From: Actinoallomurus soli
Lineage (GTDB): Bacteria; Actinomycetota; Actinomycetes; Streptosporangiales; Streptosporangiaceae
Assembly (NCBI RefSeq): GCF_024055715.1
Contig: NZ_JAMXMV010000007.1
Location: forward strand, 62,001 to 126,000
Direction of reading: 5' to 3'
DNA length: 64,000 nucleotides
Positions 38,048-52,125 of this stretch are shown piece by piece. Under the pieces are notes generated by a model. The model worked only from the letters and a program-made list of their open reading frames with translations, made no database searches and was not told the DNA's origin. Position 1 is the first letter of the stretch. Each line of letters opens with the position of its first letter. A program made the translations under genes and the position numbers.

Positions 38048-38070
38048 GCCCGTTCGGCGAAAAGCGGAAC

Positions 38071-38096
38071 GCGCCGGCGCGTCACCGCCCCGGCGC
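38071..38096. terminator. Weak terminator hairpin between convergent genes
   Basis: A 7-bp GC stem with a 12-nt loop lies in the 61-bp gap between the convergent msrB and SH3-like genes. No T-run is present. Confidence 0.35.
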
Positions 38097-38108
38097 ATTC
38101 CGGCATTC

Positions 38109-38468
38109 TCAGCGGCGCTTCACGTCGATCCGCTGAAGGTTCTTCCCCGGTACCCATCCGGTCCTGCCGCCGCCCAGCCTCACCTCGAGGTACCCGTGGG
38201 AGGACCTGCCCGTTCCGGTGGTCGTCGCGCCGGCGCCGAGGTGGCCGACGATCCGCGACTTCGGGTCGGCCGCCGCCTGAACGGCGAGCTCACGCCCCTT
38301 CCGCACGCCGACGACCCGGTAGGTCTGCGACGCCTTGGCGCTCGGAGCGTGTGCGGAGACGGGCCGTACGGCGGCCTCCGCCGTCGCCCCCATGGCCAGG
38401 ACTCCGCCGGCTCCGATGGTCACGGCGGCGACGACGGTGACGGCCCGGTTGCGCAGATTCATGTCCAC
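38109..38468 (-). CDS. Small secreted protein with SH3-like domain
   Basis: A 119-residue exported protein: signal peptide residues 1-33 (cleavage near ATAEAA), a short linker, then a domain of about 65 residues. This reads TYRVVGVRKGRELAVQAAADPKSRIVGHLGAGATTTGTGRSSHGYLEVRLGGGRTGWVPGKNL in outline, matching bacterial SH3 (SH3b) repeats that often bind cell-wall peptides. The start may be the second Met (38462). AT-richer DNA at 38480-38560 upstream probably holds the promoter. Confidence 0.75.
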   Translation of the reverse strand: MDMNLRNRAVTVVAAVTIGAGGVLAMGATAEAAVRPVSAHAPSAKASQTYRVVGVRKGRELAVQAAADPKSRIVGHLGAGATTTGTGRSSHGYLEVRLGGGRTGWVPGKNLQRIDVKRR

Positions 38469-38642
38469 TCCCTGGTGTTCGACAGCCCTTTCGGATATCG
38501 GCCAAATTAATCGGCCCGTCTGGAAGGACGATGAAGCACGACAAGGAATTGAATGAGATCGATTTCAGAGTGGAATGAGGCAGATTAACGCGGTATGAGA
38601 ACCGCTGCGCGGCGCGCCGCCCGGTGGGACGGCGCGCCGTGC

Positions 38643-39800
38643 TCAGCGCAGGACCGACAGCCGGTCGAGGACGCCGAACGGCTGCAGCCCGTAGGCGTAG
38701 AAATCGACCGCGTCGGCCGTCGCGGCGACCGACCCGGCCTTGGCCGCCAGGTCGGCCGCCGAGGCGGTGTCCGGCGGGCCCGGGCGCAGCAGGGCGCGCA
38801 GCTCGCGGCCCGGCCCGAGGGCGGCGCGGTACGCCTCCAGGTCGGTCGCGACCCGACCGGCGTCCCGCGCGTACGCGGTGACGGCGTAGCCGCCGGCGAC
38901 CCGCGCGACCGCGGCCGGGTCGATCCCGATCCGCCACGCGTCGGACGCCGAGGGCCCGCCCGACGGGCGGCCGTCCGCGTACCCCTTCACCGCGCCGGTG
39001 AGGTCGAGGAAGATCAGCCGAGATCCCTCCGCGGCGACCGCCTCGGCCACCTCGGCGACGAGCGAGGTGATCGTCGCCCGGCGGGCCGTCGCGAACTCCG
39101 TGATCGCCGCCGGCAGGCCGGCCTCCGCCTGCCGCGCGCCCCCGCCTTCGAACGCCTCCTCGACCAGGCGCACGGCCTCCTTCCGCGCCGCCTCCGCGCC
39201 CTCGACGCGCCGGCAGTCCGGGCAGAAGCACAGGCCGAGGGCGTACTCGGCGACCGGGCCGAGCTCGACGAAGGAGCGTTCGTGGTGATAGCCGTGCCCG
39301 AAGAACCCGAAGTGCAGCGACTCGGCGACGACGCCGTCGACGCCGTACCGCGCCATGGAACGGGCCAGGGCGACGGCGTACGCGCGGACGTCGGGGTTGG
39401 ACGGGCACAGGTCCGCCGGGGCCGCGCGGTCGCCGAAGCAGTTCTCCTGCGTCACGCCGGGGTGCTCCAGGCCGATCGTGGTGTTGTGCAGGAAGACCCC
39501 CCACGCGTACAGCGACGCGCCGCGCGAGCGGGTCAGGGCCCGCAGCGAGCGGAGCGGGTCGTCCTCCGCGCCCGCCTGCACGGGCGGCACCAGCCTCCCG
39601 AACAGGTCGCCGGGCGGGAAGTGCACGCCGTCGTGGCGGAACGTCACCCGCGACGCGCCGTGCGGGGTGACGTCACGGGCCCGGTGGTAGGCCGCCGCGA
39701 CGGTCAGCCCGGTACAGCCGTAGCCGACGACCCGGTCGAGGACCGGCGCGGCGCCCTCGCCGCGCACGTCCTCGACGAAGGTGTAGACGGTGGAGTCCAT
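38643..39800 (-). CDS. Unknown protein, last gene of the amino-sugar-acid operon (possible TIM-barrel enzyme)
   Basis: A 385-residue soluble protein of no family I can name. It opens MDSTVYTFVEDVRGEG and contains YGVDGVVAESLHFGFFGHGYHHERSF, a cysteine pair in CFCPDC near residue 195, and SRLIFLDLTG later. These beta-strand-then-charged-loop segments suggest a TIM barrel such as a glycoside-hydrolase-like or sugar-lactonase-type fold, but this is only an impression. It starts one base into the RidA stop (TGATG), so it is firmly part of the operon. The product could process a glycan or glycosyl derivative feeding the pathway. Confidence 0.7.
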   Translation of the reverse strand: MDSTVYTFVEDVRGEGAAPVLDRVVGYGCTGLTVAAAYHRARDVTPHGASRVTFRHDGVHFPPGDLFGRLVPPVQAGAEDDPLRSLRALTRSRGASLYAWGVFLHNTTIGLEHPGVTQENCFGDRAAPADLCPSNPDVRAYAVALARSMARYGVDGVVAESLHFGFFGHGYHHERSFVELGPVAEYALGLCFCPDCRRVEGAEAARKEAVRLVEEAFEGGGARQAEAGLPAAITEFATARRATITSLVAEVAEAVAAEGSRLIFLDLTGAVKGYADGRPSGGPSASDAWRIGIDPAAVARVAGGYAVTAYARDAGRVATDLEAYRAALGPGRELRALLRPGPPDTASAADLAAKAGSVAATADAVDFYAYGLQPFGVLDRLSVLR

Positions 39801-40195
39801 CAGCCCTTGTACGCCACGAAGTCGATCTCGACCAGGATGTTCATCAGGTCCGAGCCGACGGTCGTGCGCACCGGATACGGCTCCGTGAAGTGCTCGCGGT
39901 AGACCTCGTCGTAGGCGGCGAAGTCGCGGTGCAGCTCCTGCAGGTGCACGGTCGACTTGACGACGTCGTCGAAGGTCAGGCCCTCCGCGGCGAGGACGGC
40001 GGCCAGGTTCTTCAGCACCTGCCGGGTCTGGGTGGCCACGTCGTCGCCGACGACCTGGCCGGTCTCCGGGTCGATCGGGCCCATCCCGGCGGTGAAGAGG
40101 AGGTCGCCGGCGACGATCCCGTGCGAGTAGGTCCCGCCCGGCGCGGGGACGTTCTCCGGCTGGACGCGCTTCTTGGAAGGAATGGTCTTCTCCAA
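39800..40195 (-). CDS. RidA family reactive intermediate deaminase
   Basis: A 131-residue YjgF/YER057c/UK114 protein that hydrolyses reactive enamine/imine intermediates (for example 2-aminoacrylate) released by PLP-dependent dehydratases. The substrate arginine is in YPVRTTVGS and the C-terminal ILVEIDFVAY is the family end. It is encoded 8 bp after the kinase gene with a TTG start at 40195; no better start exists. Its presence with a PLP dehydratase-like enzyme fits detoxification of the enamine formed during deamination. Confidence 0.9.
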   Translation of the reverse strand: MEKTIPSKKRVQPENVPAPGGTYSHGIVAGDLLFTAGMGPIDPETGQVVGDDVATQTRQVLKNLAAVLAAEGLTFDDVVKSTVHLQELHRDFAAYDEVYREHFTEPYPVRTTVGSDLMNILVEIDFVAYKG

Positions 40196-40202
40196 TCGCT
40201 GG

Positions 40203-41297
40203 TCAGCGCACCACGTCGTCGGTGGCGCGCATGAGGATGAGATCTTCCCGGGAGGGCAGACCCTCCCAGTCTCCCTGGACGGTGACGGCGTACGCGCCCG
40301 CGCACGCGCCGGCCGCCAGGCGCTCGGGGATGCGGCGGCCGAGCACTCGCTCGGCGAGGTACGCCGCGGCGAACGCGTCCCCGGCCCCGACCGGGTCGAT
40401 CGTCTCGACCGGCAGGGCGGGCTCGTCGTACAGGTCGCCGTCGCAGCAGGCGACGGCGCCCAGCGCGCCGCGCTTGACGATCGCCTCGCGCGGGCCGAGG
40501 GCGGCCAGGCCGGCCGCGAGCGCGGACGCGTCCGCGCCGCCGGTGACGAGCCGGGCCTCCACCTCGGTCGCGAAGACGACGTCCGACCGCATGACGAGGG
40601 GCTTCAGCCGCGCACCGGCCTCCGCCGGCGTCCACAGGGCCCGGCGGAAGTTCAGGTCGAGCGAGACCGGGACGCCCGCGGCGCGCGCGGTGTCGATGGC
40701 GGCGTGCACCGCCGCGTGCGCGCCATAGCTGAGGGCGGCGGTGATCCCGGTGACGTGCAGGACGCGGGCCCGGCGGATCAGGTCCTCCGGGACGTCCTGC
40801 GGGGAGAGCCGCGATCCGGCGCTGCCGGAACGGTAGTACTGGACCCGCGTGAGCCGGCCGGTCCGGCGCTCCTTGATGAGCAGCGCCGTCGGGGCGGCGG
40901 GGTCGACGATGACGTGGCCGACGTCGATGCCCTGGCCGGCCAGTGTCATCTGGATGAGCCGGCCGAACTCGTCCTCACCGACCCGCCCGACCCAGGCGGC
41001 GCTGCCGCCGAGGCGGCGGAAGCCGATGGCGACGTTCGACTCGGCGCCGGCGACGCCCAGGTCCAGGCTGCGGGCGTGGCGCAGCGGCCCGACCACCGGA
41101 CCCTCCAGCCGGGCCAGCGACTCGCCGATGGTGACGAGCTGCGGCCCCTCCACCGATGGCCGCGGCCCGTCCCCCGCCGGCTGCACCGCAGGATGCGGCC
41201 CGCTTCCCGCCTGCCGCGGCCCGTCCCCCGCCGGCTGCACCGCAGGATGCGGCCCGCTTCCCGCCTGCGGCGGCCCGTCCCCCGACGTGGCGCTCAT
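40203..41297 (-). CDS. PfkB-family sugar kinase, 2-keto-3-deoxygluconate-kinase-like
   Basis: A 364-residue ribokinase-family enzyme. The domain starts at LVTIGESLARLEGP (about residue 52) and ends with the ATP/catalytic motif DPVGAGDAFAAAYLA, whose Asp is the catalytic base. The order and loops (SLDLNFRRALW, DVVFATEVEARLVTG) resemble KdgK. It should phosphorylate 2-keto-3-deoxygluconate to KDPG for the adjacent aldolase. The first 50 residues are an unusual Gly/Pro/Gln/His-rich extension made of two 18-residue repeats encoded by a 54-bp tandem duplication. The ATG overlaps the aldolase stop (ATGA). Confidence 0.85.
   Translation of the reverse strand: MSATSGDGPPQAGSGPHPAVQPAGDGPRQAGSGPHPAVQPAGDGPRPSVEGPQLVTIGESLARLEGPVVGPLRHARSLDLGVAGAESNVAIGFRRLGGSAAWVGRVGEDEFGRLIQMTLAGQGIDVGHVIVDPAAPTALLIKERRTGRLTRVQYYRSGSAGSRLSPQDVPEDLIRRARVLHVTGITAALSYGAHAAVHAAIDTARAAGVPVSLDLNFRRALWTPAEAGARLKPLVMRSDVVFATEVEARLVTGGADASALAAGLAALGPREAIVKRGALGAVACCDGDLYDEPALPVETIDPVGAGDAFAAAYLAERVLGRRIPERLAAGACAGAYAVTVQGDWEGLPSREDLILMRATDDVVR
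41161..41268. repeat. 54-bp tandem repeat in the kinase N-terminal extension
   Basis: Two copies (41161-41214 and 41215-41268) encode the repeated GDGPxQAGSGPHPAVQPA segment of the sugar kinase; a partial third copy follows. The unit is in frame (18 codons), so it lengthens the protein without breaking it. Confidence 0.9.
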
Positions 41298-41938
41298 CCG
41301 CGTGCTCCGGCGACGGCCGCGACGAGGCGGCGGGCCCGGTCGGCCAGGGCGTCCAGCGGCCCTCCGTCGAGCGCGTCGCCGAGGAGGGGCCCGCCGACGC
41401 CGACCGCGATGGCGCCGGCCCGGATGTAGTCGCCGGCCACGTCGACGCCGATACCGCCGGTCGGCAGGAGCGGGATGTCGCGGAACGGCCCGCGCAGGTC
41501 GCGCAGGTACCCGGGGCCGAACGTACCGGCCGGGAAGACCTTCACGGCGGACGCGCCGAGCTCCCAGGCCGCACCGATCTCGGTGGGCGTGAGCGCGCCC
41601 GGATAGTAGGCGATGCCGCGCGCGGCGGCGCGCTCGGCGACCTGCGGCCGCGTGTCGGGCGCGACGACGAAGGACGCGCCCGCGTCGGCGGCGGCGTCGA
41701 CCTGCTCGGCGGTCAGCACGGTGCCCGCGCCGAGTTCGACGTCGCCGGGCAGCCGGCGACGCGCCGCCCGGAGGGAGTCGATCGCTCCGGGGGTGTTGAG
41801 GGTCACCTCCAGGCAGCGCACGCCGGCGGTGGTGAGCGTGTCGAGCACCGCGTCCGTCCGGTCCCCGCTGGTGCCCCGCACGACGGCGACGACGCCGCCG
41901 GCGAGCAGCACCGGGCCGGGGCTGACTCGGGTGGTCAT
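41294..41938 (-). CDS. KDPG/KHG aldolase
   Basis: A 214-residue class I aldolase (Eda family). The Schiff-base lysine is K133 in SAVKVFPA, the catalytic glutamate is E44 in CLEVTLNTP, and GAGTVLTAEQV and YPGALTPTE carry phosphate- and substrate-binding residues. It cleaves KDPG to pyruvate and glyceraldehyde-3-phosphate. It sits directly upstream of the KDG-type kinase with a 4-bp overlap and downstream of the PLP enzyme by 33 bp, a classic keto-deoxy-sugar-acid module. Confidence 0.92.
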   Translation of the reverse strand: MTTRVSPGPVLLAGGVVAVVRGTSGDRTDAVLDTLTTAGVRCLEVTLNTPGAIDSLRAARRRLPGDVELGAGTVLTAEQVDAAADAGASFVVAPDTRPQVAERAAARGIAYYPGALTPTEIGAAWELGASAVKVFPAGTFGPGYLRDLRGPFRDIPLLPTGGIGVDVAGDYIRAGAIAVGVGGPLLGDALDGGPLDALADRARRLVAAVAGARG

Positions 41939-41971
41939 GAGGTGTTTCTCTCCTTCGGAGGATGCGGGGTC

Positions 41972-43285
41972 TCAGAAGTAGGTGCGGATCAGGTCGACGA
42001 CCGTGCGATCCTCGTCGATCACGGGGATGACCTGCCACTTGTCGAAGGCCGTGCAGGGGTGGGAGATGCCGAAGCACACCAGGTCGCCCGGGGTGAGCCG
42101 GACGTCGCCGGTCAGGTAGGCGTGGTGGTCGTTCATCCGCTCGACGACGAGGCCGTCGGCGGGCTCCTCGCTCCCGTCGCGGCGGCGGATCAGGCGCGGC
42201 ACCGGCAGGCCCTCGTCGTACGGCGCCTCGCGCTTGCCCATGCCGACGAGGGCGAGTCCCTCCTCCGGGGTGGAGGTGACCTGGGCCCAGACCTCCAGCG
42301 CCGCGTCGAGCGAGCCGCCGATCCGGGTGTAGGGCGTCTTGACGCGGTAGACGCCGTCGTCGTGACTGACGTACGCGCCGCTGCGCAGGATCGTGCGCAG
42401 CCGGTGACCGGGCAGCCACTCGCCGCCGAGCCGGTCGGCGACGACGTCGAAGTAGGCGCTGCCGCCGGCGGTGACGATCACGGTCTCGGGCAGCAGCCCG
42501 GCGCGGGACAGCTCCAGCGTCGCGGCGCGCACGTCGTTCAGGTACGCGGTGACGGCGGGCACGCTCGTCAGGCCGCCCTCGTAGGCCGCCACGCCCGCGA
42601 GCTCGATGTTCGGGGCGGCGGCGACGGCGCGGGCGACCTCGGTCAGCTCGGCGGCGGTGCGGCAGCCCGTACGCCCGCCGGCGTGCCCGAGCTCGACCAG
42701 GACCCGGAAGGACCCGGGCACCGACGCGATCGTCTCGACCCCGGCGACCGAGTCGACGTAGCACAGGAACTCCAGGCCGCGGTCGATCTCCTCGCCGATC
42801 CAGCGCAGCGCCACCGGGTCGAGCAGCTCGTTGGCCAGCAGCACCCGGGGCACGCCGAACGTACGGTAGGCCAGCACCTGGTTCGCGGTGGCGGCGGTGA
42901 TCCCCCAGGCCCCGGCGTCGAACTGCGCCTGGAACAGCGAGGGCGCCATCGTCGTCTTGCCGTGCGGGGCGAACTCCAGCCCGCGCTCCGCGCAGAACGC
43001 CGCGAGCCGGTCGATGTTGTGATCGAGGGCCGAGCGCCGGGCCACCATGACCGGCCAGGTGAACGCCCCGCCGAACAGGTGGTGCCGGGCGGCGGCGAAG
43101 TCCTCGATCGACTCGGCCGGTCCCGGGTGCCACAGGCCCTTGGTCAGCGCGTCGACCCGCGCGGGCGGGACGGTGAGGCGCACCCCGGCGCCGTCGGCCC
43201 GGCCACCGGTCTGCTGGCCGGTCGTCGTCTCGCCGGTTCCGTCCGTCCGGCCGGTGGTCGCCTCGTCGATGCCGTGTTCGCTCAC
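41972..43285 (-). CDS. PLP-dependent D-threonine aldolase/D-serine dehydratase-like enzyme (possible D-glucosaminate dehydratase)
   Basis: A 437-residue fold-type III PLP enzyme. The PLP lysine is K110 in EFAPHGKTTMAP within the alanine-racemase-like barrel; the C-terminal DSD domain ends with H409 and C411 in SHPCTAFDKW, the zinc site of eukaryote-type D-serine dehydratases. D-glucosaminate dehydratase, which converts D-glucosaminate to 2-keto-3-deoxygluconate and ammonia, belongs to the same superfamily to my knowledge. With KDG-type kinase and KDPG aldolase next, that reaction is more likely here than D-serine cleavage. The first 35 residues are low-complexity Thr/Gly. GTG 43285 overlaps the IclR stop. 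Confidence 0.8.
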   Translation of the reverse strand: MSEHGIDEATTGRTDGTGETTTGQQTGGRADGAGVRLTVPPARVDALTKGLWHPGPAESIEDFAAARHHLFGGAFTWPVMVARRSALDHNIDRLAAFCAERGLEFAPHGKTTMAPSLFQAQFDAGAWGITAATANQVLAYRTFGVPRVLLANELLDPVALRWIGEEIDRGLEFLCYVDSVAGVETIASVPGSFRVLVELGHAGGRTGCRTAAELTEVARAVAAAPNIELAGVAAYEGGLTSVPAVTAYLNDVRAATLELSRAGLLPETVIVTAGGSAYFDVVADRLGGEWLPGHRLRTILRSGAYVSHDDGVYRVKTPYTRIGGSLDAALEVWAQVTSTPEEGLALVGMGKREAPYDEGLPVPRLIRRRDGSEEPADGLVVERMNDHHAYLTGDVRLTPGDLVCFGISHPCTAFDKWQVIPVIDEDRTVVDLIRTYF

Positions 43286-44091
43286 TGGACGTTCCCCTCC
43301 GCGGCAGCGCCGTGTCGTGTTGATCCGAGGATCCGTGATATCTCCGCCGCCGTGCGGACCACCAGGGGGCCCACCTCACGGACCCGTACCGGTGTCATCC
43401 GGGAGGTCAGGCCCGAGACGCTCAGTGCGGCGACGGCTTGGTCGGTGTGGTCGAAGACGGCCGCGGCGACGCAGCGGACCTCGGGCTCGTTCTCCCGGTC
43501 GTCGATGGAGTAGCCGCGCCGGCGGATCCATTCGAGCTCGGCCCGCAGCGCCTTCGGGTCGGTCACGGTCTTCTCGGTGATCGGCGGCATCCCCGCCTCG
43601 ACGATCAGACGGAACGCGTCCTCGTCGAGCCAGGCGAGGACGGCCTTGCCGACGGCGGTGCAGTAGGCCGGGGCCCGGCTGCCGACCCGGGAGGCCATCC
43701 GGACGTTGTGCTCGTTCTCCACCTTGTCGATGTACACGACGTCCGGCGCGTCGTACAGGACCAGGTGACAGGTCTCACGCACGGCGCGCTGGAGCCGGCG
43801 CAGCGGTTCGGCGGCGACGGCCCGCACGTCGATGGAGGACAGGTACGCCTGGCCGAGCCGCAGCGAGCCGTGCCCCAGCCGGAACCAGCCGGTCTCGTGG
43901 TCGCGGGCGAGCAGGTCCTCCTCCAGCAGCGGCGCGGACAGCCGCAGCACCGTGCTCTTGCTCATGCCGAGGTCCTCCGCGATCCGGGTCAGCGGGACGG
44001 GCCGCCCCGCGTTGTCCCGCAGGTACCCCAGCACGGCGAGGGCCCGCCGCAGCGAGGAGGACTGGTTGCGCCCGGCCGGTGTCACGGTCAT
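43282..44091 (-). CDS. IclR family transcriptional regulator
   Basis: A 269-residue IclR regulator: N-terminal winged helix with LTRIAEDLGMSKSTVLRLSAPL (about residues 34-55) and the C-terminal GAF-like effector domain with RAPAYCTAVGKAVLAWL and GYSIDDRENEPEVRCVAAAVF. IclR proteins often regulate sugar-acid catabolism. Encoded inside the operon it presumably controls, with 4-bp overlaps on both sides, it probably acts at the repeats at 52097-52125. Confidence 0.92.
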   Translation of the reverse strand: MTVTPAGRNQSSSLRRALAVLGYLRDNAGRPVPLTRIAEDLGMSKSTVLRLSAPLLEEDLLARDHETGWFRLGHGSLRLGQAYLSSIDVRAVAAEPLRRLQRAVRETCHLVLYDAPDVVYIDKVENEHNVRMASRVGSRAPAYCTAVGKAVLAWLDEDAFRLIVEAGMPPITEKTVTDPKALRAELEWIRRRGYSIDDRENEPEVRCVAAAVFDHTDQAVAALSVSGLTSRMTPVRVREVGPLVVRTAAEISRILGSTRHGAAAEGNVQ

Positions 44092-44804
44092 GTCGTGCTC
44101 CCGGGCAGCAGGCCGCGCGCCAGGACGTCGCGCGCCGCGGTCAGGTGCCGGCCACCGCGGGTCAGGGAGATCTCGTGGTGGCCGGGGAAGAGCGCGTCGA
44201 CCTCCAGCCGGGCAAGCGCCTCCAGGCTGGCGGCGTACTCGGGGACCCGGCAGTCGTGCAGGTTCTGCAGCGAGATCCGGCCGCCGTGGAACACGCAGTC
44301 GCCGGAGAACAGCGCCCGATGGTGCGGCGTCCGCAGCAGGTAGCAGGTGTGGCCGTCGGCGTGGCCGGGCGTGGCGATCGCCCGCAGCGTCACGCCGCCG
44401 CCGAGGTCGAACTCGTCACCGTCGCGCACGGCCCGGACGCCGGGACAGGGCGGAAAGTCGTATCCGGGCGGGTAGACGCCCGCCGCGCGCCCCTTGTCGA
44501 CGCTCAGCCCGGCCTCGTCCCCGGCCGCCATCCAGTCGCCGACCGGCGCGCCCGCGTGGATCGGGACGCCGTGGCGGGCCAGCTCGGCGGCGCCGCCGGA
44601 ATGGTCGGCGTGGCCGTGGGTGAGCAGGACGCGGTCGGGGCGGCCGTGGCGCAGGATCTCCGGCACCGACCGGCCCGCGCCCGCGTCGATCAGCGCGCTG
44701 CCGGTCGCGCCGGTGACGAGGTAGACGTGGCAGTCGAGCGGGTCGGTCAGGTCGAAACCCGCCGCTCCGCTGGCCACCAGAGTGACGTGTTCGGTCAGGC
44801 GCAT
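44088..44804 (-). CDS. Metallo-beta-lactamase-fold hydrolase
   Basis: A 238-residue MBL-fold hydrolase. The zinc motif HxHxDH is in LLTHGHADHSGGA at about residues 57-69; later metal histidines are in TPGHADGHTCY and in the C-terminal FPGHHEIS. The fold includes glyoxalase II, lactonases and many others; in this operon a lactone or thioester hydrolysis step is possible, for example opening an amino-sugar lactone, but this is speculation. It starts with an ATG at 44804, 22 bp after the M20 gene. Confidence 0.85.
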   Translation of the reverse strand: MRLTEHVTLVASGAAGFDLTDPLDCHVYLVTGATGSALIDAGAGRSVPEILRHGRPDRVLLTHGHADHSGGAAELARHGVPIHAGAPVGDWMAAGDEAGLSVDKGRAAGVYPPGYDFPPCPGVRAVRDGDEFDLGGGVTLRAIATPGHADGHTCYLLRTPHHRALFSGDCVFHGGRISLQNLHDCRVPEYAASLEALARLEVDALFPGHHEISLTRGGRHLTAARDVLARGLLPGSTT

Positions 44805-44826
44805 GGCGTCCTCCGTACGAGCTCGG

Positions 44827-45960
44827 TCATGCGCATGGCATCCCCCGTACGACCTCGGTGACGATCTCGGCGGCCAGCGCCACGTCGGCCAGGGCGACCG
44901 ACTCGGCGGCCGAGTGGGCGTCGCCGACCGAGCCGGGGCCGAACACCACGGACGGGATGCCGGCGTGGGCGATCTTGCTGGCGTCGGTGCCGAACGGCAT
45001 GCCGCGCACCTCGGCGTCCCGCCCGCGCGCGGTCAGCGCGGCGCGCAGCGTCGCGACGACCGGGCTGTCCGCCGGGGTGTCGAGCGCCAGGTCCACGGTG
45101 AAGGGCTCGTCGACCTCGATCGGGCCGAGCGCGGCCAGTTCCGCTCCCTCGCGCCGCCACACGGCGTGCGGGTCCTCGCCCGGCAGGGTGCGCCGGTCGA
45201 CGTCGATCTCGCAGGTGCCCGGGATCGTGTTCGGGCCCGTGCCGCCCCGTACGCGGGTGACGGCGCGCGTCGCCGCGCCCAGGAGCGGGTGGTCCGGCAC
45301 GTCCGGGACGGTGTCGTCGAGGTGGGCCAGGACCGGGCCCATCAGCGACACGGCGTTGACGGCCTCGTGCGGGCGCGAGCTGTGGCCGGCCCGGCCCAGG
45401 GTGCGGACGGTGTAGCGGACGCAGCCCTTGTGCGCGGTGACCGGCGCCAGGTCCGTGGGCTCGCCCACGATCGCACCGGCGAAGCCGCGGCCGGCCTCGT
45501 CCGACAGCAGGGCGAGCACGCCCCGGTAGTGGTGCTCCTCGTCGGCCACCCCGGCCAGGACGACCGTGCACGGCGGCGGCTCGCCGGCGGCGAGCTCGGC
45601 GGCGGCCAGCATGAACGCGGCGAGCGGCCCCTTGGCGTCGCAGGCGCCGCGCCCGTACAGCCGGCCGTCGCGGACCTCGCCGGCGTACGGGTCGACCGTC
45701 ATGCCGTCGGTCTCCACCGTGTCCAGGTGGGACTCCAGCAGGACGGCGCGCGGCGAGCGGCCCGGCACGACCGCGACGACGTTCGGCCGGCCGGGCAGGA
45801 CCTCGCGGACCGCGGCGGTGATGCCGCGCTCGGCCAGCCAGTCCCGCGCGTACGCGGCGACGGCGGCCTCGGCGGGCCCGTCCCCGTCACGCGGGTTGAC
45901 GCTCGGCACGGCCACCAGGCCGCGCAGCAGTGACTCTGCGTTCTCCCCCGAGATCGTCAT
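44827..45960 (-). CDS. M20 family metallopeptidase/deacylase (ArgE/DapE-like)
   Basis: A 377-residue M20 enzyme. The metal site is seen as ESHLDTV (H), GRGACDAKG (bridging D), GVADEEHH (catalytic E followed by a metal E), VGEPTD and the late GDAHSAAESV (H). The dimerisation lid (GHSSRPHEAVNAVSLM) is intact. It may cleave an N-acyl or dipeptide bond of the imported compound, giving an alternative to the D-aminoacylase. The ATG 45960 overlaps the permease stop. Confidence 0.9.
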   Translation of the reverse strand: MTISGENAESLLRGLVAVPSVNPRDGDGPAEAAVAAYARDWLAERGITAAVREVLPGRPNVVAVVPGRSPRAVLLESHLDTVETDGMTVDPYAGEVRDGRLYGRGACDAKGPLAAFMLAAAELAAGEPPPCTVVLAGVADEEHHYRGVLALLSDEAGRGFAGAIVGEPTDLAPVTAHKGCVRYTVRTLGRAGHSSRPHEAVNAVSLMGPVLAHLDDTVPDVPDHPLLGAATRAVTRVRGGTGPNTIPGTCEIDVDRRTLPGEDPHAVWRREGAELAALGPIEVDEPFTVDLALDTPADSPVVATLRAALTARGRDAEVRGMPFGTDASKIAHAGIPSVVFGPGSVGDAHSAAESVALADVALAAEIVTEVVRGMPCA

Positions 45961-46919
45961 CAGTTCCGCCGTTCTCGCGCGTAGGCCAGGAGCAGGAGGA
46001 TGATCAGCAGACCCTGGAAGACCTGGCGGATGCCCTCCGACAGGTTCCAGGCGGCCAGCAGGGCCGTGATCAGGGTGAGCAGGAGCGCGCCCGCGATCGT
46101 GCCGAGCAGGTGGCCGCGCCCGCCCAGGATGGACGTGCCGCCGAGCACCACCGAGGCGATCGACAGCAGCTGGTACGGGTTGCCCATGGTCAGCGAGCTG
46201 GTCCCGGTGAAGCCCAGGAGGACCAGCCCCGCCACGCCCGCCAGCAGGGAGCACACCGCGTACACGGTGAAGGAGGTCGCGGTCAGCGGCACGCCGGAGG
46301 CGCGCGAGGCCGGCTCGCTGGTGCCGACGGCGAAGACGTACCGCCCGGTCCGGGACAGGTGCAGCAGCCAGTACGCCGCGGCCGCGATCACGAGCCACAG
46401 CACGAACGCCAGCGGGATCCCGGCCACCTTGCCGTTGGCGAGCGAGTCGAGCAGCCCGACGCGGGCCGACTTGGGCGCGCCGTTGGTGTAGACGAGCAGC
46501 GCGCCGGAGATGATCGTGCCGGTGGCCAGTGTCATCACCATCGGCGGGACCCGCAGCCAGGTGATCCCGGCGGCGTTGACCACGCCGACGAGGGTGCTGA
46601 GGACGAGTGCGACGAGGATCCCGGCGACGGGGCCGTGGCTCGCCGCCGTCTGCGCGCAGACCACCGCGGACAGGGCGACCACTCCGGACACCGACAGGTC
46701 GATGCCGCTCATCATCACGACGAGGGTCTGGCCGATCGCGACGATGCCGAGGAACGAGGCCGTCTGGACGAGGTACCGGAAGCTGGAGACGCTGTCGAAT
46801 CCCTGCGCGAACAGGATCGCCGCGATCCAGACCACGGCGAGCACGCCGAACGCCCAGGCGGCGCGGTTGTCGCGCAGGGCCGCGAGCGGTCGCGCGGTGG
46901 TGGATGATGCCGTCGTCAC
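45960..46919 (-). CDS. Ribose/sugar-type ABC transporter permease (second)
   Basis: A 319-residue BPD_transp_2 permease of the RbsC family with about eight to ten membrane segments. The segment VVMMSGIDLSVSGVVALSAVV is the family signature. GTG 46919 overlaps the stop of the first permease gene (GTGA). It forms a heterodimer with the product of the preceding gene, as is usual for ribose-type importers with two permeases. Confidence 0.92.
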   Translation of the reverse strand: MTTASSTTARPLAALRDNRAAWAFGVLAVVWIAAILFAQGFDSVSSFRYLVQTASFLGIVAIGQTLVVMMSGIDLSVSGVVALSAVVCAQTAASHGPVAGILVALVLSTLVGVVNAAGITWLRVPPMVMTLATGTIISGALLVYTNGAPKSARVGLLDSLANGKVAGIPLAFVLWLVIAAAAYWLLHLSRTGRYVFAVGTSEPASRASGVPLTATSFTVYAVCSLLAGVAGLVLLGFTGTSSLTMGNPYQLLSIASVVLGGTSILGGRGHLLGTIAGALLLTLITALLAAWNLSEGIRQVFQGLLIILLLLAYARERRN

Positions 46920-47851
46920 GCCGTCCTCCTCCGGTCGGTCGCGAGGGTCTTCAGGGCGATCGCCGCGATGAGGATCACGCCCTGCAGGATGAGCTGGTAG
47001 AAGGGCGACATCCCGGTGAACAGCAGCAGGTTCGTCAGCAGGCCGATGATCAGCGCGCCGAGGATCGTGCCCCGCATCGCGCCGACCCCGCCGAAGAAGC
47101 TGACTCCGCCGAGCACCGACGCCGCGATGGAGTTGAGGGTGTAGGGGGTGCCGATGGTCGCGTCGCCCGAGCCCGTCTGGATCGCCAGGCCGATCCCGGC
47201 GAGGCCGACGAAGACCCCGGCCAGGGCGTATCCGCCGATCTTGATGGCGCGGGTGTTCAGGCCCCCGGCGTACGCGCCGTGCTCGTTGCCGCCCACGGCG
47301 TACAGCGCGGTTCCGAAGCGGGTCAGCTTCCCGAGCTTCCAGAGCACGACGACCACGATGATCGCCACCGCCGGGACGGCGACGCCGTTCCAGCCGTTGT
47401 TGTACGCCTTGACCAGGCCGCCCGGCACGTGCCCGCCCGGCTGCGGCAGCACCGCGAGGGTGACGCCGCCCCACAGGAAGGACGCCGCGAGCGTCACGAT
47501 GATCGGCGGCAGGCCGGCGTAGGCGACCATCGCGCCGTTCACCGCGCCGGCGGCCGCGGCGACGAGCAGCGCGAGCACCGCCGCGAGCACGACGCCGTGG
47601 TCGGCGCGCAGCGCGAACACCGCCATCGCCAGCGCCAGCACCGGCCCGAGCGACAGGTCGATGCCGCCGGTCAGCATGACCGTCGTCTGGCCCATCGCCG
47701 CCAGGATCAGCGACAGGAACTGCGCCGAGAGGATCGTGATCGACGCGGGCGTCAGCAGCGACGGGTCGTACGCCTGGTAGGCGATGAGCAGGACGACGAG
47801 CAGGACGCCCAGCCCCACCGTCTCCAGGTGCTCGGAGATCCGCTCATGCAT
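46916..47851 (-). CDS. Ribose/sugar-type ABC transporter permease (first)
   Basis: A 311-residue RbsC-family permease carrying TTVMLTGGIDLSLGPVLALAM, the same signature as its partner, and the loop ALYAVGGNEHGAYAGGLN near the end of the central region. About eight to ten membrane segments. The ATPase gene overlaps its start region by 8 bp. The two permeases, ATPase and binding protein form one importer, predicted to take up the N-acylated substrate. Confidence 0.92.
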   Translation of the reverse strand: MHERISEHLETVGLGVLLVVLLIAYQAYDPSLLTPASITILSAQFLSLILAAMGQTTVMLTGGIDLSLGPVLALAMAVFALRADHGVVLAAVLALLVAAAAGAVNGAMVAYAGLPPIIVTLAASFLWGGVTLAVLPQPGGHVPGGLVKAYNNGWNGVAVPAVAIIVVVVLWKLGKLTRFGTALYAVGGNEHGAYAGGLNTRAIKIGGYALAGVFVGLAGIGLAIQTGSGDATIGTPYTLNSIAASVLGGVSFFGGVGAMRGTILGALIIGLLTNLLLFTGMSPFYQLILQGVILIAAIALKTLATDRRRTA

Positions 47852-49340
47852 GGGCCACGCTCCCCGTCACCGAGGCGCGGACCAGCCGCTCCTCCGTCAG
47901 GTCGGGGCCGCTCAGCCGGTCGACGACCGTTCCCTCGTACATCACCGCGACCTCGTCGCACAGGCCGACCAGCTCCATCGTGTCCCCGGAGGTGACGAGC
48001 ACCGCCATGCCCCCGTCGGCCAGTTCCCGGAGCAGGTGGTAGATCTCGCGTTTGGTGCCCACGTCGATGCCGCGCGTGGGCTCGGCCAGCAGCAGGACGC
48101 CCGGCCGGGTCGGCAGCCACTTGGCCAGCGCGACCTTCTGCTGGTTGCCGCCGGACAGCCGGCGTACCTGCTGGGCCGGTGAGGACGTCTTGACCCGCAG
48201 CCGCCGGATCAGCTCGTCGACGAGGCGGTTCTCCGCGCCGCGCGCGACCGTGGCCAGGCGGGACGCCGGGGCCAGGGTCCGCAGGTTCGGCAGTGCGAGG
48301 TTGGCCCGGACGCTCTGCGCCACGTGCACGCCCTCGATCTTGCGGTCCTCCGGGACGTACGCGATGCCGCGCCGGATCGCGTCGCGGGGCGACCGGGACC
48401 GGCAGGGCCGGCCGTCCAGTTCGACCGTCCCCGCGTGCCGGGCGAGCCCGCCCAGCGCGCGCAGCACTTCGCGCTGCCCCTGCCCCTGCAGGCCGCCCAG
48501 GCCGATGATCCGGCCCGGGGCCAGCTCCAGGTCGACGCCGTGGCAGGCGCCGGGCACCGTCAGGCCGCGGGCGACGAGTCGGGGCCCGGCCTCCGTCGCG
48601 GCGGGCCGGTCCGGGAACAGGTTCGACAGCTCCCGGCCGATCATCAGCCGCACGATGTCGTCGTGGTCGGTCTCGGCGCGCTCGCGGGTCGCCGTCACCT
48701 GGCCGTCCCGCAGCACCGTGAGCCGGTCGGACATCGCGAACAGCTCGGCCATGCGGTGACTCACCATGATCACCGAGCTGTTCGCCTCCCGCAGTTCCCG
48801 CACGACGCGGAACACCGCCTGGACCTGGTCGTCGTCGAGCGCCGAGGTGGCCTCGTCCAGGATCAGCAACCGCGGCCTGCTCACCAGCGCCTTGGCCAGC
48901 TCGACGAGCTGCTGCTGACCGAGCGGCAGGCGGCCCGCCTTGGTCCGCGGGTCGACGTCCAGGCCGACCCGCTCCAGCAGGGGGCGGGCGTGCTCGGCCA
49001 GGTTCCGGCCCAGGACCAGGCCGCCGCGGGTCGGCCAGGCGCCGAGGAAGATGTTCTCGGCGACGGTCTGGTGCGGGTTGAGGCTGAGCTCCTGGTGGAC
49101 CGACCCGATCCCGGCGGACCGGGCGCGCTGCGGTGACCAGGCCCGTACGGGCTCGCCGTCCAGGACGATCCGCCCGGAGTCGGGCGTCTGCAGGCCGGTG
49201 ATCAAGGAGAGCACCGTGCTCTTGCCCGCGCCGTTCTCCCCGACGAGCGCCAGCACCTCGCCGGCGCGGACGTCGAAGGTCACCTCGTGCAGGACCCGGT
49301 TGCCCGCGAAGGACTTGCAGACCCCCTCGACGCTCAGCAT
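47844..49340 (-). CDS. Ribose/sugar-type ABC transporter ATP-binding protein (two domains)
   Basis: A 498-residue RbsA-type protein with two ABC domains in one chain. The first has Walker A GENGAGKST and Walker B LLILDEATSALDD, with signature LPLGQQQLVELAKAL. The second has the usual degenerate Walker A (GGLQGQGQREVL) and a full signature LSGGNQQKVALAKW, but its Walker B reads VLLLAEPTRGID, an alanine where family members have the magnesium-binding aspartate. ATG 49340 overlaps the binding-protein stop. It drives the importer. Confidence 0.92.
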   Translation of the reverse strand: MLSVEGVCKSFAGNRVLHEVTFDVRAGEVLALVGENGAGKSTVLSLITGLQTPDSGRIVLDGEPVRAWSPQRARSAGIGSVHQELSLNPHQTVAENIFLGAWPTRGGLVLGRNLAEHARPLLERVGLDVDPRTKAGRLPLGQQQLVELAKALVSRPRLLILDEATSALDDDQVQAVFRVVRELREANSSVIMVSHRMAELFAMSDRLTVLRDGQVTATRERAETDHDDIVRLMIGRELSNLFPDRPAATEAGPRLVARGLTVPGACHGVDLELAPGRIIGLGGLQGQGQREVLRALGGLARHAGTVELDGRPCRSRSPRDAIRRGIAYVPEDRKIEGVHVAQSVRANLALPNLRTLAPASRLATVARGAENRLVDELIRRLRVKTSSPAQQVRRLSGGNQQKVALAKWLPTRPGVLLLAEPTRGIDVGTKREIYHLLRELADGGMAVLVTSGDTMELVGLCDEVAVMYEGTVVDRLSGPDLTEERLVRASVTGSVAHA

Positions 49341-50395
49341 CACTTTCCGATCAGCTTGTCGATGTCGGACTGCGCGATCGGCTGGATCGGGTAGTAGTCG
49401 TCCGACTGGTCGGTCTTGACGTACTGCGCCAGGTTGGCGTCGGTGATCCGGGGCAGCGGGACGGTGACGTTGGTCGGGACGTTCACCCCGTCGCGCTTGG
49501 CGACGGCCGCCTCGATCGCGATGACGCCGAGGTAGTTCGGCTGGGCGGTCGACATCGAGGAGAAGCCCTGCTTCTGCTTGCTCTGCCACAGCTTCAGGAA
49601 GCCGTTGTAGTTCTCACCGGTGATCGGCACGAGCTTCTTGTTCTGCTTGACGAGCGTCTGCAGCGCGGCGGCCGACAGCGCGCCGCCCTGGGAGAAGACC
49701 CCGTTGATCGACGGGTGCGCGGAGTACGCCGACGCGAACGCCTGGGCGGCGGGCGCGAGGTTGTACTCGCTGTGGACGTTCGCCACGATCTTGATGTTCG
49801 GGTACTTCTTCAGCGCCTCCTGGGCGCCCTTCCAGCGGTCTTCGCTCACCGCGACGCCGGCCGGGCCGTTGAACGCGATGATCTGGCCCTTGCCGCCGAG
49901 CTTGTCGGCCAGCCACTGGGCGGTCATCCGGCCCCATTCGACCTGGTCCGTGCCGACCTTGATGACCTTGTCGCTGGTGACGAGGCTGTCGAAGTTCACG
50001 ACGGTGATGCCGGCGTTCGCGGCCTGTTCCAGCGCCGGGTTCAGCGCCGTCGAGGAGCCGGCGTCCACGATGATCACGTCGTACTTCTGCTGGATCATCG
50101 CGCGGATCTGCGCGATCTGCTGGGACGTGTCGCCGTTGGCGTTGAAGGTCTGGTACGACGCGATCTTCCCGGACTGCTTCAGCTTGTTGACGTCGTCCTG
50201 CATCATCTTGGCCGTCTCCTGCATCCAGGAGGGCGTCAGGTAGATGGTCGACCAGCCGACCTTGAGCGCCTTGGTCGCGCCCGCCCTGCCGCCGCCGGCC
50301 GTACTCGCGCCGTTGTTGACGCCGCAGGCCGACACCGCGGTGACCGCGCCGAGGGCGGCCACGGTCAGGACGGCTCCTTTGAGTTTGCCGAACAT
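49340..50395 (-). CDS. Sugar-type ABC transporter substrate-binding lipoprotein
   Basis: A 351-residue Peripla_BP_4 (ribose/galactose-type) binding protein. The signal peptide ends AVTAVSACGVNN, a good lipobox with Cys at residue 24, so it is anchored to the membrane. Core strands include LKVGWSTIYLTPSWMQETAKM, YDVIIVDAGSSTALNPAL and INGVFSQGGALSAAAL. The unusually aromatic first strand suggests a non-standard sugar-like ligand. It is the second gene of the operon, 63 bp after the deacylase gene. Confidence 0.92.
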   Translation of the reverse strand: MFGKLKGAVLTVAALGAVTAVSACGVNNGASTAGGGRAGATKALKVGWSTIYLTPSWMQETAKMMQDDVNKLKQSGKIASYQTFNANGDTSQQIAQIRAMIQQKYDVIIVDAGSSTALNPALEQAANAGITVVNFDSLVTSDKVIKVGTDQVEWGRMTAQWLADKLGGKGQIIAFNGPAGVAVSEDRWKGAQEALKKYPNIKIVANVHSEYNLAPAAQAFASAYSAHPSINGVFSQGGALSAAALQTLVKQNKKLVPITGENYNGFLKLWQSKQKQGFSSMSTAQPNYLGVIAIEAAVAKRDGVNVPTNVTVPLPRITDANLAQYVKTDQSDDYYPIQPIAQSDIDKLIGK

Positions 50396-50458
50396 GGGGG
50401 GACTCCTTCATGAGGTCCGGGAGGGGGATCGGGAGCGCGCCGCGCAGGCGCGGTGCGG

Positions 50459-52006
50459 TCAGTTCGGGGTGAGGGCGCGGCCGGGCAGCGCGCCGGTCAG
50501 GGCTCCCCCGGCCAGGACGGGCACCCCGCCGACGAGGACGTGGTCGACGCCTTCGGCGGGGGTGCGCGGGGATTCGTAGGTCGAGCGGTCGGTGACCGTA
50601 CGGGGGTCGAGGACGACGAGGTCGGCCGCGAAGCCGCGGCGGACGAGGCCACGGTCGAGCAGGCGGAACCGGCGCGCGGCGTGCGCGGACATGTGCACCG
50701 CCGCCTGTTCCCAGGTCCAGTCGCCGAGCTCGCGCACGTGCCGGGCCAGGAGCCGGGCGAACGCACCCCAGCCGCGCGGGTGTGGGTGGCCGCCCTGGTA
50801 GATGGCGTCCGAGCCGGTGGTCTGCGCGGGGTGGCGCAGCAGGGCTCGTACCGACTCCTCGGTGTTGGTCGGCGGCTGCCCGAACACGCACCCGGCCTCC
50901 AGGCGGGTCGCCACGAGCAGCTCGCAGCAGAACTCGCCCGGGGAGCGGCCCGCCCGCTCGGCGGCCTCGGGCAGCGTCAGGCCCTCGGCCCAGCGCAGGT
51001 CGTCGGCCGGCACGTGCGACAGCGTGATGCGCGGCCACAGGTCGGCCGTCCACTCCCCTTCCAGCCGCCGGCGTACGGCGGGGTCGGCCAGCGCCTCCAG
51101 GGTCGCGTCCAGGTCGGCGACGGGAAGCCAGCCGGGCAGGGTGACCAGCGTCAGGGTGCTGGATCCGCGCAGGTAGGGGTAGTTGTCGAAGGTCAGGTCG
51201 ATGCCCTTCGCCCGCGCGTCGTCCACCATCGCGATCAGGTGGTCGCGGGGGCCGTGGTAGTGGGAGACGTGCGCCGCGACCCCGCCGGCCTCCGCGATCC
51301 GGCGCACCTCGGCCATCCCGTCGCCGGCCTTGGCCTCGTACCCCCGCATGTGCGTGACGTACGGCAGGCCGGCCGCGGCGACCGGCGCGCACAGCGCGGC
51401 GATCTCGCCGGCCTCGGCGTACGCGCCGGGGAAGTACTCCAGGCCGGTGGACAGGCCCGCCGCGCCCTCCTCCAGGCCGCGTTCGACGTCGCGGAGCATG
51501 GCGGCCAGTTCGTCGGCGTCGGGCGCGCGGCGGGCGGCGCCGAGCGCGTTGCGCCGGATCGTCCCGTGCGGGAGCAGGTAGACCGTGTGGAGGGGAAGGC
51601 GGCGGTCGTAGCCGGCGAGCAGCTCCGCGACCGTCACCGGGCCGTCGTCGAGGCCGGGGTGCCGGCCGTTGACCGGCGCGAAGTACCGCGAGACGTACGC
51701 CAGCGTCGCCGCGCTCGCCGGGGCGAAGGAGACGCCGTCCTGGCCGAGCACGAAGGCGGTGACGCCCTGGCGCAGGGCGGCGAGCTGGACCTCGGGATCG
51801 AAGACCGCGGCGTCGCCGTGGACGTGCGTGTCGATGAACCCCGGCATGACGTACCGGCCGGTCGCGTCGATCTCCGTCGCCGCCTGGACCCCGGGCAGCG
51901 AGCCGATCTCGGTGATCCGGTCCCCGGAGATCGCGATGTCGGCGCGGAAGGCGGGCGAGCCGGTCCCATCGACCACCCACCCACCACGAATCACCGCATC
52001 AGCCAT
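50459..52006 (-). CDS. N-acyl-D-amino-acid deacylase (D-aminoacylase)
   Basis: A 515-residue amidohydrolase of the D-aminoacylase family. It has the metal motif FIDTHVHGD (HxH) at about residues 58-66, THMRGYE, HVSHYHG, GLSTGLEYFPG and the late GSDAIYQ carrying the catalytic aspartate, plus N- and C-terminal beta-sandwich segments (VVDGTGSPAFRADIAI; FAADLVVLDP). It removes N-acyl groups from D-configured amino acids; D-glucosaminate derivatives fit this stereochemistry. It is the first gene of the 13-gene operon; the IclR-type repeats lie about 91 bp upstream. Confidence 0.9.
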   Translation of the reverse strand: MADAVIRGGWVVDGTGSPAFRADIAISGDRITEIGSLPGVQAATEIDATGRYVMPGFIDTHVHGDAAVFDPEVQLAALRQGVTAFVLGQDGVSFAPASAATLAYVSRYFAPVNGRHPGLDDGPVTVAELLAGYDRRLPLHTVYLLPHGTIRRNALGAARRAPDADELAAMLRDVERGLEEGAAGLSTGLEYFPGAYAEAGEIAALCAPVAAAGLPYVTHMRGYEAKAGDGMAEVRRIAEAGGVAAHVSHYHGPRDHLIAMVDDARAKGIDLTFDNYPYLRGSSTLTLVTLPGWLPVADLDATLEALADPAVRRRLEGEWTADLWPRITLSHVPADDLRWAEGLTLPEAAERAGRSPGEFCCELLVATRLEAGCVFGQPPTNTEESVRALLRHPAQTTGSDAIYQGGHPHPRGWGAFARLLARHVRELGDWTWEQAAVHMSAHAARRFRLLDRGLVRRGFAADLVVLDPRTVTDRSTYESPRTPAEGVDHVLVGGVPVLAGGALTGALPGRALTPN

Positions 52007-52096: not shown

Positions 52097-52125
52097 TCTG
52101 CAACACAGAATTTTGCGATGCAGAA
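52097..52125 (-). promoter_or_regulatory. Candidate IclR operator upstream of the operon
   Basis: On the minus strand, TTCTGCATCGCA is followed after three bases by TTCTGTGTTGCA, two similar 12-mers with a 15-bp period, and TCTGCA/TGCAGA also form an outer inverted repeat. The site is AT-richer than its surroundings and lies about 91 bp upstream of the deacylase start. The encoded IclR protein is the likely binder. Confidence 0.55.

Follow-up and report, generated by a model that had tools for sequence, protein, structure and literature searches.

A 13-gene operon of Actinoallomurus soli predicted to break down an N-acylated amino-sugar acid

Introduction

A route from N-acetyl-D-glucosaminate (GlcNAc1A) down to KDG-6-P has been demonstrated in Pseudoalteromonas prydzensis, where it is encoded by the ong cluster, OngB, OngC and KdgK are active in vitro, and growth on GlcNAc1A is abolished by deletion of ongB, ongC, kdgK or ongD, the last encoding RidA (Jiang et al. 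2022, PMC9537276). A published survey found the complete ong pathway in Gammaproteobacteria and in one Achromobacter, with a KDPG aldolase in the ong clusters of Vibrio, Klebsiella and Serratia. The dga route for D-glucosaminate likewise employs a PLP ammonia-lyase (DgaE) and takes an amino-sugar acid to the KDPG level; DGL of this route is described as acting on the 6-phosphate (PMC9529869). Here, we describe an actinobacterial operon that, judged from its genes, apparently builds an ong-like route in which deacetylase, transporter and regulator are of other types.

Results

All 13 open reading frames of the operon are present on the minus strand of the window (the whole 64,000-nucleotide stretch analysed), running from 52006 to 38643, with starts and stops checked. 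In order of transcription, preceded by the candidate operator, the features are as follows.

52111..52125, minus strand: putative IclR operator upstream of gene 1, a variant of TTTTGCANTGCAAAA (motif search)
50459..52006, minus strand: gene 1, D-aminoacylase-like amidohydrolase, Asp-type, 515 aa, proposed N-acetyl-D-glucosaminate deacetylase (PF07969)
49340..50395, minus strand: gene 2, sugar-type ABC binding protein (PF13407)
47844..49340, minus strand: gene 3, double-domain ABC ATPase (PF00005, two stretches)
46916..47851, minus strand: gene 4, ABC permease (PF02653)
45960..46919, minus strand: gene 5, ABC permease, GTG start (PF02653)
44827..45960, minus strand: gene 6, M20 deacylase, acetylornithine-deacetylase-like (PF01546; TIGR01892 2.6e-64, under cut-off; 7rsf 1.6e-32)
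44088..44804, minus strand: gene 7, MBL-fold hydrolase (PF00753; named-family matches all under cut-off or weak)
43282..44091, minus strand: gene 8, IclR-family regulator (PF01614 and PF09339; BhcR/KdgR/IclR-like, all under cut-off)
41972..43285, minus strand: gene 9, PLP enzyme, proposed D-glucosaminate ammonia-lyase (PF14031 and PF01168; 3gwq 4.3e-76; HGK and SHPC motifs)
41294..41938, minus strand: gene 10, KDPG aldolase (TIGR01182 8.1e-52, over cut-off)
40203..41297, minus strand: gene 11, PfkB KDG-type kinase with a repeat-bearing N-terminal extension (best model NF040938 1.9e-63, under cut-off)
39800..40195, minus strand: gene 12, RidA, TTG start (TIGR00004 1.3e-30; 106.1 bits against a cut-off of 106.25)
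38643..39800, minus strand: gene 13, uncharacterised, possibly a glycoside-hydrolase-like barrel (faint DUF4015/GHL6 matches among homologues)

The intergenic gaps from gene 1 to gene 13 are 63, -1, -8, -4, -1, 22, -4, -4, 33, -4, 7 and -1 bases, the negative values meaning that 8 of the 12 junctions overlap. An earlier note on this DNA had described a tight minus-strand operon and suggested a search for the same gene set in other genomes; both the overlaps and the search, in which two g38 genus genomes (L049 and L050) showed all 13 genes co-linear with identities of 63-81%, uphold that description. A third g38 genome (L051) carries genes 6-13 at a contig start. Conservation of the set is far beyond chance. 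No terminator-like site was found in 38050-39000.

Profile matches agreed with the families that the note had read from the sequence: Amidohydro_3, Peripla_BP_4, ABC_tran, two BPD_transp_2, Peptidase_M20, Lactamase_B and IclR; D-ser_dehydrat and Ala_racemase_N domains in the PLP gene; and TIGR01182, PfkB (NF040938) and TIGR00004 models for the KDPG aldolase, KDG-like kinase and RidA. Gene 13, listed there as an unknown protein, indeed has no family match at E 0.001. The kinase ATG at 41297 overlaps the aldolase stop and is most likely the true start of gene 11, correcting an earlier ORF start; the resulting N-terminal extension carries an 18-residue repeat.

By enzyme kind, the operon shares with the ong cluster a D-aminoacylase-like deacetylase, a KDG kinase and RidA; gene 9, of the D-ser_dehydrat family, is a candidate counterpart of the PLP deaminase OngC. 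The kinase and RidA are of the ong type at family level, with both models under cut-off (RidA barely), while the KDPG aldolase, over cut-off for TIGR01182, is present in some ong clusters as well. The ong cluster has an SSS transporter (OngIT), a MurR/RpiR regulator (OngR) and a GH20 hexosaminidase (OngA), whereas the window operon has an ABC importer and an IclR protein and no GH20 gene; it adds M20, MBL-fold and gene 13 proteins, and its deacylase is Asp-type, not Cys/His/His. Judged by gene content, the operon is not a plain ong cluster. As for the dga route, uptake there is by a PTS, and DgaE has a different PLP fold from gene 9.

The GlcNAc1A deacetylase PpOngB (PMC12017989; PDB 9kb1) belongs to the same superfamily as gene 1 (phmmer 1.7e-46). 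The two have in common the HxH motif, two metal His, the catalytic Asp, the substrate-carboxylate Arg and Tyr, and a Ser at Ser292; gene 1 differs in having His251 at Lys254, Tyr223 at Glu226 and, at the metal site, Asp90 at Cys97, with H61, H63, H219, H249, D400 and R411 retained in the alignment. Subtype V D-aminoacylases combine a Cys/His/His metal site with a catalytic Asp, and gene 1 has Asp in place of that Cys. Because this metal-site residue differs, we dropped the name OngB orthologue for gene 1. Among the matches listed (80 of 216), the Cys-position residue was Asp in 69 of 78 aligned rows, the window included, Cys in 7 and a gap in 2, proportions that give no frequency for the Asp type since the scan patterns (GQDG[LV]S[YF]AP and one other) favoured GQDG; stops in the gene 1 rows of L064 and L084 were written as X for alignment. 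At the OngB Ser292 position, gene 1 has Ser283, a Ser shared by 10 of the 69 Asp-type rows (the window, L025, L049, L050, L068, L076, L077, L079, L098 and L108), with the D-aminoacylase residue Thr in 58. As a clean specificity marker this position was ruled out, Thr also occurring in kinase-linked Streptomyces. Two loci have a PRK09237-type amidohydrolase in the place of gene 1: in L054 this deacetylase-family match is over cut-off, and in L067, which also encodes an SSF symporter, just under it.

We examined which genes accompany Asp-type deacylases, counting a gene anywhere in a locus (up to about 21 kb; 64 kb for the window) at tblastn E 1e-8 and 30% coverage, after removal of L075, the same locus as L036. 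Among the matches listed, 68 distinct Asp-type loci, including the window, contained a PLP enzyme in 54 cases, RidA in 52, IclR in 37, a KDG kinase in 33, a GntP gluconate permease in 23, a KDPG aldolase in 10 and GH20 in 5. As controls from the same matches, none of the 7 Cys-type loci had a KDG kinase, and of the 19 loci of the scan lacking a well-covered gene 1 homologue one did. An annotated Tsukamurella record has the arrangement RidA-IclR-kinase / PLP-D-aminoacylase-KDPG aldolase-gluconate symporter. In Cellulosimicrobium and Promicromonospora, a GH20 hexosaminidase lies directly upstream of deacylase-PLP-RidA, and GH20 genes stand beside related loci including L076, L077, L055, L056, L058 and L059. 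Two sets of 20 relative loci were picked by hand from match lists and are thus not a random sample, and gene calls in relatives came from a crude GC-frame script that gets some ORFs wrong.

In a tree of PLP enzymes (rows with stop codons and three duplicates left out, long branches flagged), GH20 adjoins the PLP gene in all four rows forming the sister group of the window's clade. Inside that clade are the PLP enzymes of L052 and L053, 70% identical to gene 9, with none of the other operon genes nearby in 19.9 kb. In the Arthrobacter sp. H5 locus, no gene 9 homologue was found and a DgaE-family enzyme is present with the deacylase, KDG kinase, KDPG aldolase, RidA, IclR and a related ABC importer; by its gene content, a DgaE-family ammonia-lyase there appears to stand in for the PLP enzyme. 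These associations (KDG kinase, KDPG aldolase, gluconate permease, GH20 and the DgaE-family stand-in) point in the same direction as the ong route.

With up to 2 mismatches allowed, the putative operator is the window's sole match, and 0 of 100 shuffles have one; the motif, which was itself derived from the window, L049 and L050 sequences, also occurs in the promoter regions of L049 and L050. We also considered DasR control and rejected it, as the two sites at 2 mismatches lie outside the operon promoter and equal numbers turned up in 33 of 100 shuffles; no DasR-type site stood above chance.

Gene 13 has matches in 62 of 120 same-family genomes searched and is a single open frame with an internal insertion in L050. 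It may be a glycoside-hydrolase-like barrel: of 23 homologues, one matches DUF4015 (3.5e-6) and one GHL6 (0.016). A PDB profile search gave only a faint match to Cwp19 (E 2.2) and one to k-cTRP5, a repetitive chain with each repeat far above E 1, which was taken as an artefact.

Discussion

Taken together, these data suggest that the operon probably imports and breaks down an N-acylated 2-amino-2-deoxy-D-aldonate, GlcNAc1A being the best candidate. All steps are drawn from homology and gene context. Genes 2-5 would bring in the sugar acid, and gene 1 would take off the acetyl group to give D-glucosaminate. From this D-threo beta-hydroxy D-amino acid, gene 9 would eliminate water, and the enamine/imine, its hydrolysis hastened by RidA (gene 12), would yield 2-keto-3-deoxygluconate (KDG) and ammonia. 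KDG would then be phosphorylated by gene 11 and the resulting KDPG cleaved by gene 10 to pyruvate and glyceraldehyde 3-phosphate. Gene 8 would govern the promoter, perhaps via the palindrome at 52111-52125. Genes 6, 7 and 13 would be accessory: gene 6 might be a further amidase, gene 7 either a lactonase or an esterase, and gene 13 an intracellular glycosidase acting before deacetylation.

That the pathway reaches KDG by way of a D-amino-sugar acid is very likely, and by comparison an N-acyl-amino-sugar-acid route to KDG seems well supported; that GlcNAc1A itself is the physiological substrate we consider less certain, though still favour. Counting against this reading are the absence from gene 1 of OngB's Cys ligand and Lys254, the scarcity of Ser283 among Asp-type rows, the solitary PLP genes of L052 and L053, and the PLP genes that adjoin gene 13 or, on plasmids, amino-acid transporters with no kinase close by. 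The earlier note had proposed this deacylation to KDG: the sequence from N-acyl-D-amino-sugar acid through KDG to KDPG stands on the ong precedent and on the gene associations, with acetyl as the probable acyl group and gluco as the probable configuration. Among the three hydrolases of the operon, gene 1 is the candidate proposed for the deacylation.

The strongest alternative, possible if not favoured, is that a larger conjugate, either oxidised chitobiose or the amino-sugar acid in acylated, peptide-linked or lactone form, enters the cell and is opened in the cytoplasm by gene 13, the M20 enzyme and the MBL-fold enzyme before deacetylation. The M20 and MBL-fold genes accompany the transporter in the three other copies showing it (L049, L050 and L054), and gene 13 is faintly glycoside-hydrolase-like. 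Of 20 same-family regions around gene 13, 13 also have the PLP enzyme next to it, 8 of them with the deacylase, and a distant homologue in an Anaerolineaceae MAG is accompanied by a SelA-like enzyme and a homologue of the deacylase.

A further reading, salvage of N-acyl-D-amino acids, appears unlikely. Here gene 1 and the M20 enzyme would free D-serine or D-threonine, gene 9 would deaminate it and RidA would clear aminoacrylate, with kinase and aldolase serving otherwise. Consistent with this, solved relatives of gene 9 carry names such as D-serine deaminase and D-threonine aldolase; the nearest by sequence is 3gwq (4.3e-76, over gene 9 residues 41-437), a PLP protein named D-serine deaminase. 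On three enterobacterial plasmids (13 regions examined, from 40 listed of 529 matching records), PLP homologues with 43-45% identity to gene 9 adjoin amino-acid ABC transporters, with no annotated kinase within 7 kb. The note had held that a kinase and aldolase rule out D-serine or D-threonine as substrate, an argument weaker than stated because none of the 13 regions with gene 13 and a PLP enzyme, a congener's included, has either gene nearby; KDG-kinase/KDPG-aldolase-type genes were found elsewhere in the genome in 14 of 14 relatives tested. Against salvage, however, KDG kinase, KDPG aldolase, gluconate permease and GH20 recur beside the same deacylase and PLP enzyme, a DgaE-family enzyme replaces the latter in Arthrobacter sp. 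H5, and the window's importer matches sugar-type ABC profiles, with no amino-acid transporter in the operon like those on the plasmids.

No more probable is the same pathway acting on another epimer, for example N-acetyl-D-galactosaminate via KDGal. The best models for gene 11 are bifunctional KDG/KDGal kinases, all under cut-off, and close to a Comamonas homologue cluster lies a gene annotated as 2-dehydro-3-deoxygalactonokinase, but the DgaE-family association favours gluco. As GH20-type enzymes also act on GalNAc, GH20 is neutral on this point. Finally, chance joining of two unrelated modules (deacylase-PLP-RidA-gene 13 and transporter-M20-MBL-IclR-aldolase-kinase) is very improbable: congener L025 has the first module alone, but the IclR fragment upstream of its PLP gene suggests loss there, not gain in the window, and the identical 13-gene order in another genus, the overlapping genes, and the way kinase and aldolase go together with the deacylase and the PLP enzyme elsewhere among actinobacterial families all argue against it.

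The substrate proposed for the operon, GlcNAc1A, is the oxidised chain end left on chitin by C1-oxidising LPMOs. Actinobacteria can have several chitin-type LPMOs, and four of the seven in S. coelicolor group with chitin-oxidising ones, according to one report (PMC10067821). In the literature searched, we found no account of actinobacterial use of oxidised chitin chain ends. The window's genome has three LPMO_10 (AA10) genes. LPMO_10 occurs in 20/20 genomes with such a PLP gene and in 18/20 without; its presence therefore does not discriminate, and we dropped co-occurrence as a test.

We tentatively propose, as a speculative extension, that Actinobacteria from Streptomyces to Mycolicibacterium may catabolise oxidised chitin by a branch not yet described, with a new class of Asp-liganded N-acetyl-aldonate deacetylases and interchangeable ammonia-lyases. 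In the window's version, an imported oxidised oligosaccharide or conjugate might be opened by gene 13, as an intracellular glycosidase representing a new family, together with an amidase of the M20 type and an MBL-fold enzyme acting as lactonase or esterase. If the proposed reading of the operon is right, it would provide a pathway open to testing and a class of deacetylases whose metal ligand differs, and genes now annotated as D-aminoacylase and alanine racemase, as in the Tsukamurella record, would have to be renamed.

Operon structure and conservation

We found that the operon consists of 13 genes, each with verified start and stop codons, and that 8 of its 12 junctions overlap, bearing out the earlier note's claim of a thirteen-gene minus-strand operon.

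52006-38643, minus strand: in order, amidohydrolase (gene 1), binding protein, ATPase, two permeases, M20, MBL-fold, IclR, PLP enzyme (gene 9), KDPG aldolase, PfkB kinase (gene 11), RidA and gene 13

The kinase gene most likely starts at 41297. At its 5' end lies an in-frame 54-bp tandem repeat (41159-41284; 2.3 copies, 98% matches), which translates as a repeat of 18 residues within an N-terminal extension of the PfkB kinase. Elsewhere in this 9.42-Mb genome are a second aldolase and KDG-type kinase pair (G000:C33:594000-595525) and a third aldolase (C1:1306-1839). Within the window, a LigD primase-polymerase domain protein (36526-37590) adjoins a SelR (methionine sulfoxide reductase B) gene (37637-38047).

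The earlier note had proposed seeking the same gene set in other genomes, and two loci of another genus, L049 and L050, carried all 13 genes in identical order and orientation, at 63 to 81% identity. Gene 13 of L050 (L050:12410-13870) is an open frame with a long repeat-like insertion mid-gene. A third genome, L051, has genes 6 to 13 at a contig start. A further genome, L054, has genes 2 to 7 and 9, plus gene 13 (47%); its amidohydrolase belongs to another family (PRK09237, over the cut-off), and a search of the locus for a gene-1 match found none. In a congener (L025), only genes 1, 9, 12 and 13 are kept, with genes 2 to 8, 10 and 11 absent. Because a 37-residue IclR-like fragment persists upstream of its PLP gene (L025:6657-6764), likely as a deletion scar, gene loss is suggested.

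Upstream of gene 1, we identified a palindrome, TTTTGCANTGCAAAA, with two mismatches in the window, none in L049 and one in L050. Nothing else in the window matched it with two or fewer mismatches, and 0 of 100 shuffles contained a match, although the shuffle test is partly circular because the motif was derived from these same three sequences. At up to three mismatches, the palindrome was absent from ten other loci scanned, including L054 and L051 (the latter without the promoter), and had one match in L084. We take it for no more than a candidate operator at which the IclR regulator may act.

The deacylase and its gene neighborhoods

We next compared gene 1 with OngB, the N-acetyl-D-glucosaminate (GlcNAc1A) deacetylase of Pseudoalteromonas prydzensis, using residue roles given in PMC12017989 and matching positions through motifs and D-aminoacylase alignments rather than by direct OngB alignment. 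His68, His70, Tyr194, His222, His252, Tyr285, Ser291, Ser292, Asp368 and Arg379 (OngB positions) are kept, whereas Cys97 is replaced by Asp90, Lys254 by His251 and the Glu226 position by Tyr223. Gene 1 falls outside the definition of a subtype V D-aminoacylase. Judged from sequence, it may work like a GlcNAc1A deacetylase.

Among the matches listed from the gene-1 alignment scan, together with the operon and relative loci (78 rows), the metal-ligand position was Asp in 69, Cys in 7 and a gap in 2; the Ser292 position in the 69 Asp-type rows was Ser in 10 and Thr in 58. Removal of one duplicate (L075, the same locus as L036) left 68 Asp-type loci, again among the matches listed, in which we counted a PLP enzyme (54), SelA-like protein (2), RidA (52), IclR (37), KDG kinase (33), GntP permease (23), KDPG aldolase (10) and GH20 (5). 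Of the seven Cys-type loci listed, two had a PLP enzyme and none had a kinase, RidA or IclR. A further 19 loci from the same listed matches had no gene-1 homologue of good coverage; among these, kinase, aldolase, GntP, RidA and IclR each occurred once.

The typical Streptomyces layout is GntP-RidA-IclR-kinase / PLP-deacylase, and that of Tsukamurella, as annotated, is RidA-IclR-sugar kinase / alanine racemase-D-aminoacylase-KDPG aldolase-gluconate symporter. A GH20 hexosaminidase lies upstream of deacylase-PLP-RidA in Cellulosimicrobium and Promicromonospora, and another cluster (L067) combines aldolase, IclR, kinase, a PRK09237-like amidohydrolase (narrowly below the cut-off), PLP enzyme, RidA and an SSF symporter. 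The permease of locus L094 scored 398.9 bits against the gluconate symporter model (over the cut-off) versus 247.9 for DsdX (under). A GntP permease alone does not settle the substrate, since the family holds a D-serine transporter.

The PLP enzyme

Matches to the gene-9 PLP enzyme or its family turned up in 129 of the 150 order-level genomes and in 53 of 296 from the phylum, where many were distant. In a tree of 82 rows, the window's enzyme fell in an eight-row set (100/98) comprising five full or near-full operons, the congener, and two loci (L052 and L053) in which we found no further operon gene within 19.9 kb. Its sister was a set of four GH20-linked rows (12 rows together, 99/97). The first HP[CD] match read HPC in 77 of the 82 rows and HPD in 5; HxC is a mark of dehydratases and HxD of aldolases. 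By our own reasoning, D-glucosaminate shares with D-threonine the D-threo configuration of C2 and C3.

The Arthrobacter sp. H5 locus (L093) yielded no homologue of gene 9 and has a DgaE-family protein (L093:8028-9221) where related clusters carry a gene-9-type PLP enzyme. As two unrelated PLP families occur in one context, we suggest that their common reaction is ammonia elimination from an amino-sugar acid.

Against the amino-sugar-acid reading, relatives of the PLP enzyme on plasmids of Klebsiella, Pantoea and Rahnella neighbor amino-acid ABC genes, RidA and IclR, with no annotated kinase nearby; in the tree, enterobacterial rows from amino-acid-transporter contexts form a separate clade. 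Six further plasmid contexts were mixed: in Comamonas and Microbacterium, kinase genes lie in the vicinity together with either an amidohydrolase or a D-aminoacylase, and the other four are unlike an amino-sugar-acid pathway. The records opened for Nonomuraea and Microvirga were unannotated. The Comamonas cluster (L155:748-10844) encodes a Cys-type D-aminoacylase (GNCG), amino acid deaminase, MurR/RpiR, RidA and dipeptide ABC genes, with a 2-dehydro-3-deoxygalactonokinase adjoining. LPMO_10 was present in all 20 genomes that carry such a PLP gene and in 18 of 20 that lack it.

Gene 13 and the proposed pathway

Of the 120 family genomes that we searched, 62 (the window's own counted) had a match to gene 13, 47 of these with E-values of 1e-100 or lower. 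In the neighborhoods of 20 such matches, a PLP enzyme was near in 13 (with the deacylase too in 8) and gene 13 stood alone in 7; aldolase, kinase, M20 and MBL-fold genes were found in none of the 20. The genomes of all 14 relatives tested include both a KDG-kinase-like gene and a PF01081 aldolase, a weak fit to KDG as product because such genes are common. In an Anaerolineaceae MAG, a gene-13 homologue (L108:3142-4299; 23%) occurs with a SelA-like protein (26%) and an Asp-type gene-1 homologue.

For GlcNAc1A, the steps to KDG-6-P are established in Pseudoalteromonas prydzensis (PMC9537276). A glucosaminate deaminase and KDG kinase route was earlier proposed for Cupriavidus (PMC2842291), and PMC12343721 predicts that haloarchaea use a route through D-glucosaminate-6-phosphate; the clusters there include IclR and RutC-family genes. 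In the open-licence papers searched, we found no account of GlcNAc1A catabolism in actinobacteria. Of the N-acyl amino-sugar-acid route first proposed, conversion of an amino-sugar acid to KDG is well supported, and N-acetyl-D-glucosaminate is the putative substrate. Taken together, the operon is an actinobacterial variant of an already known kind of pathway.
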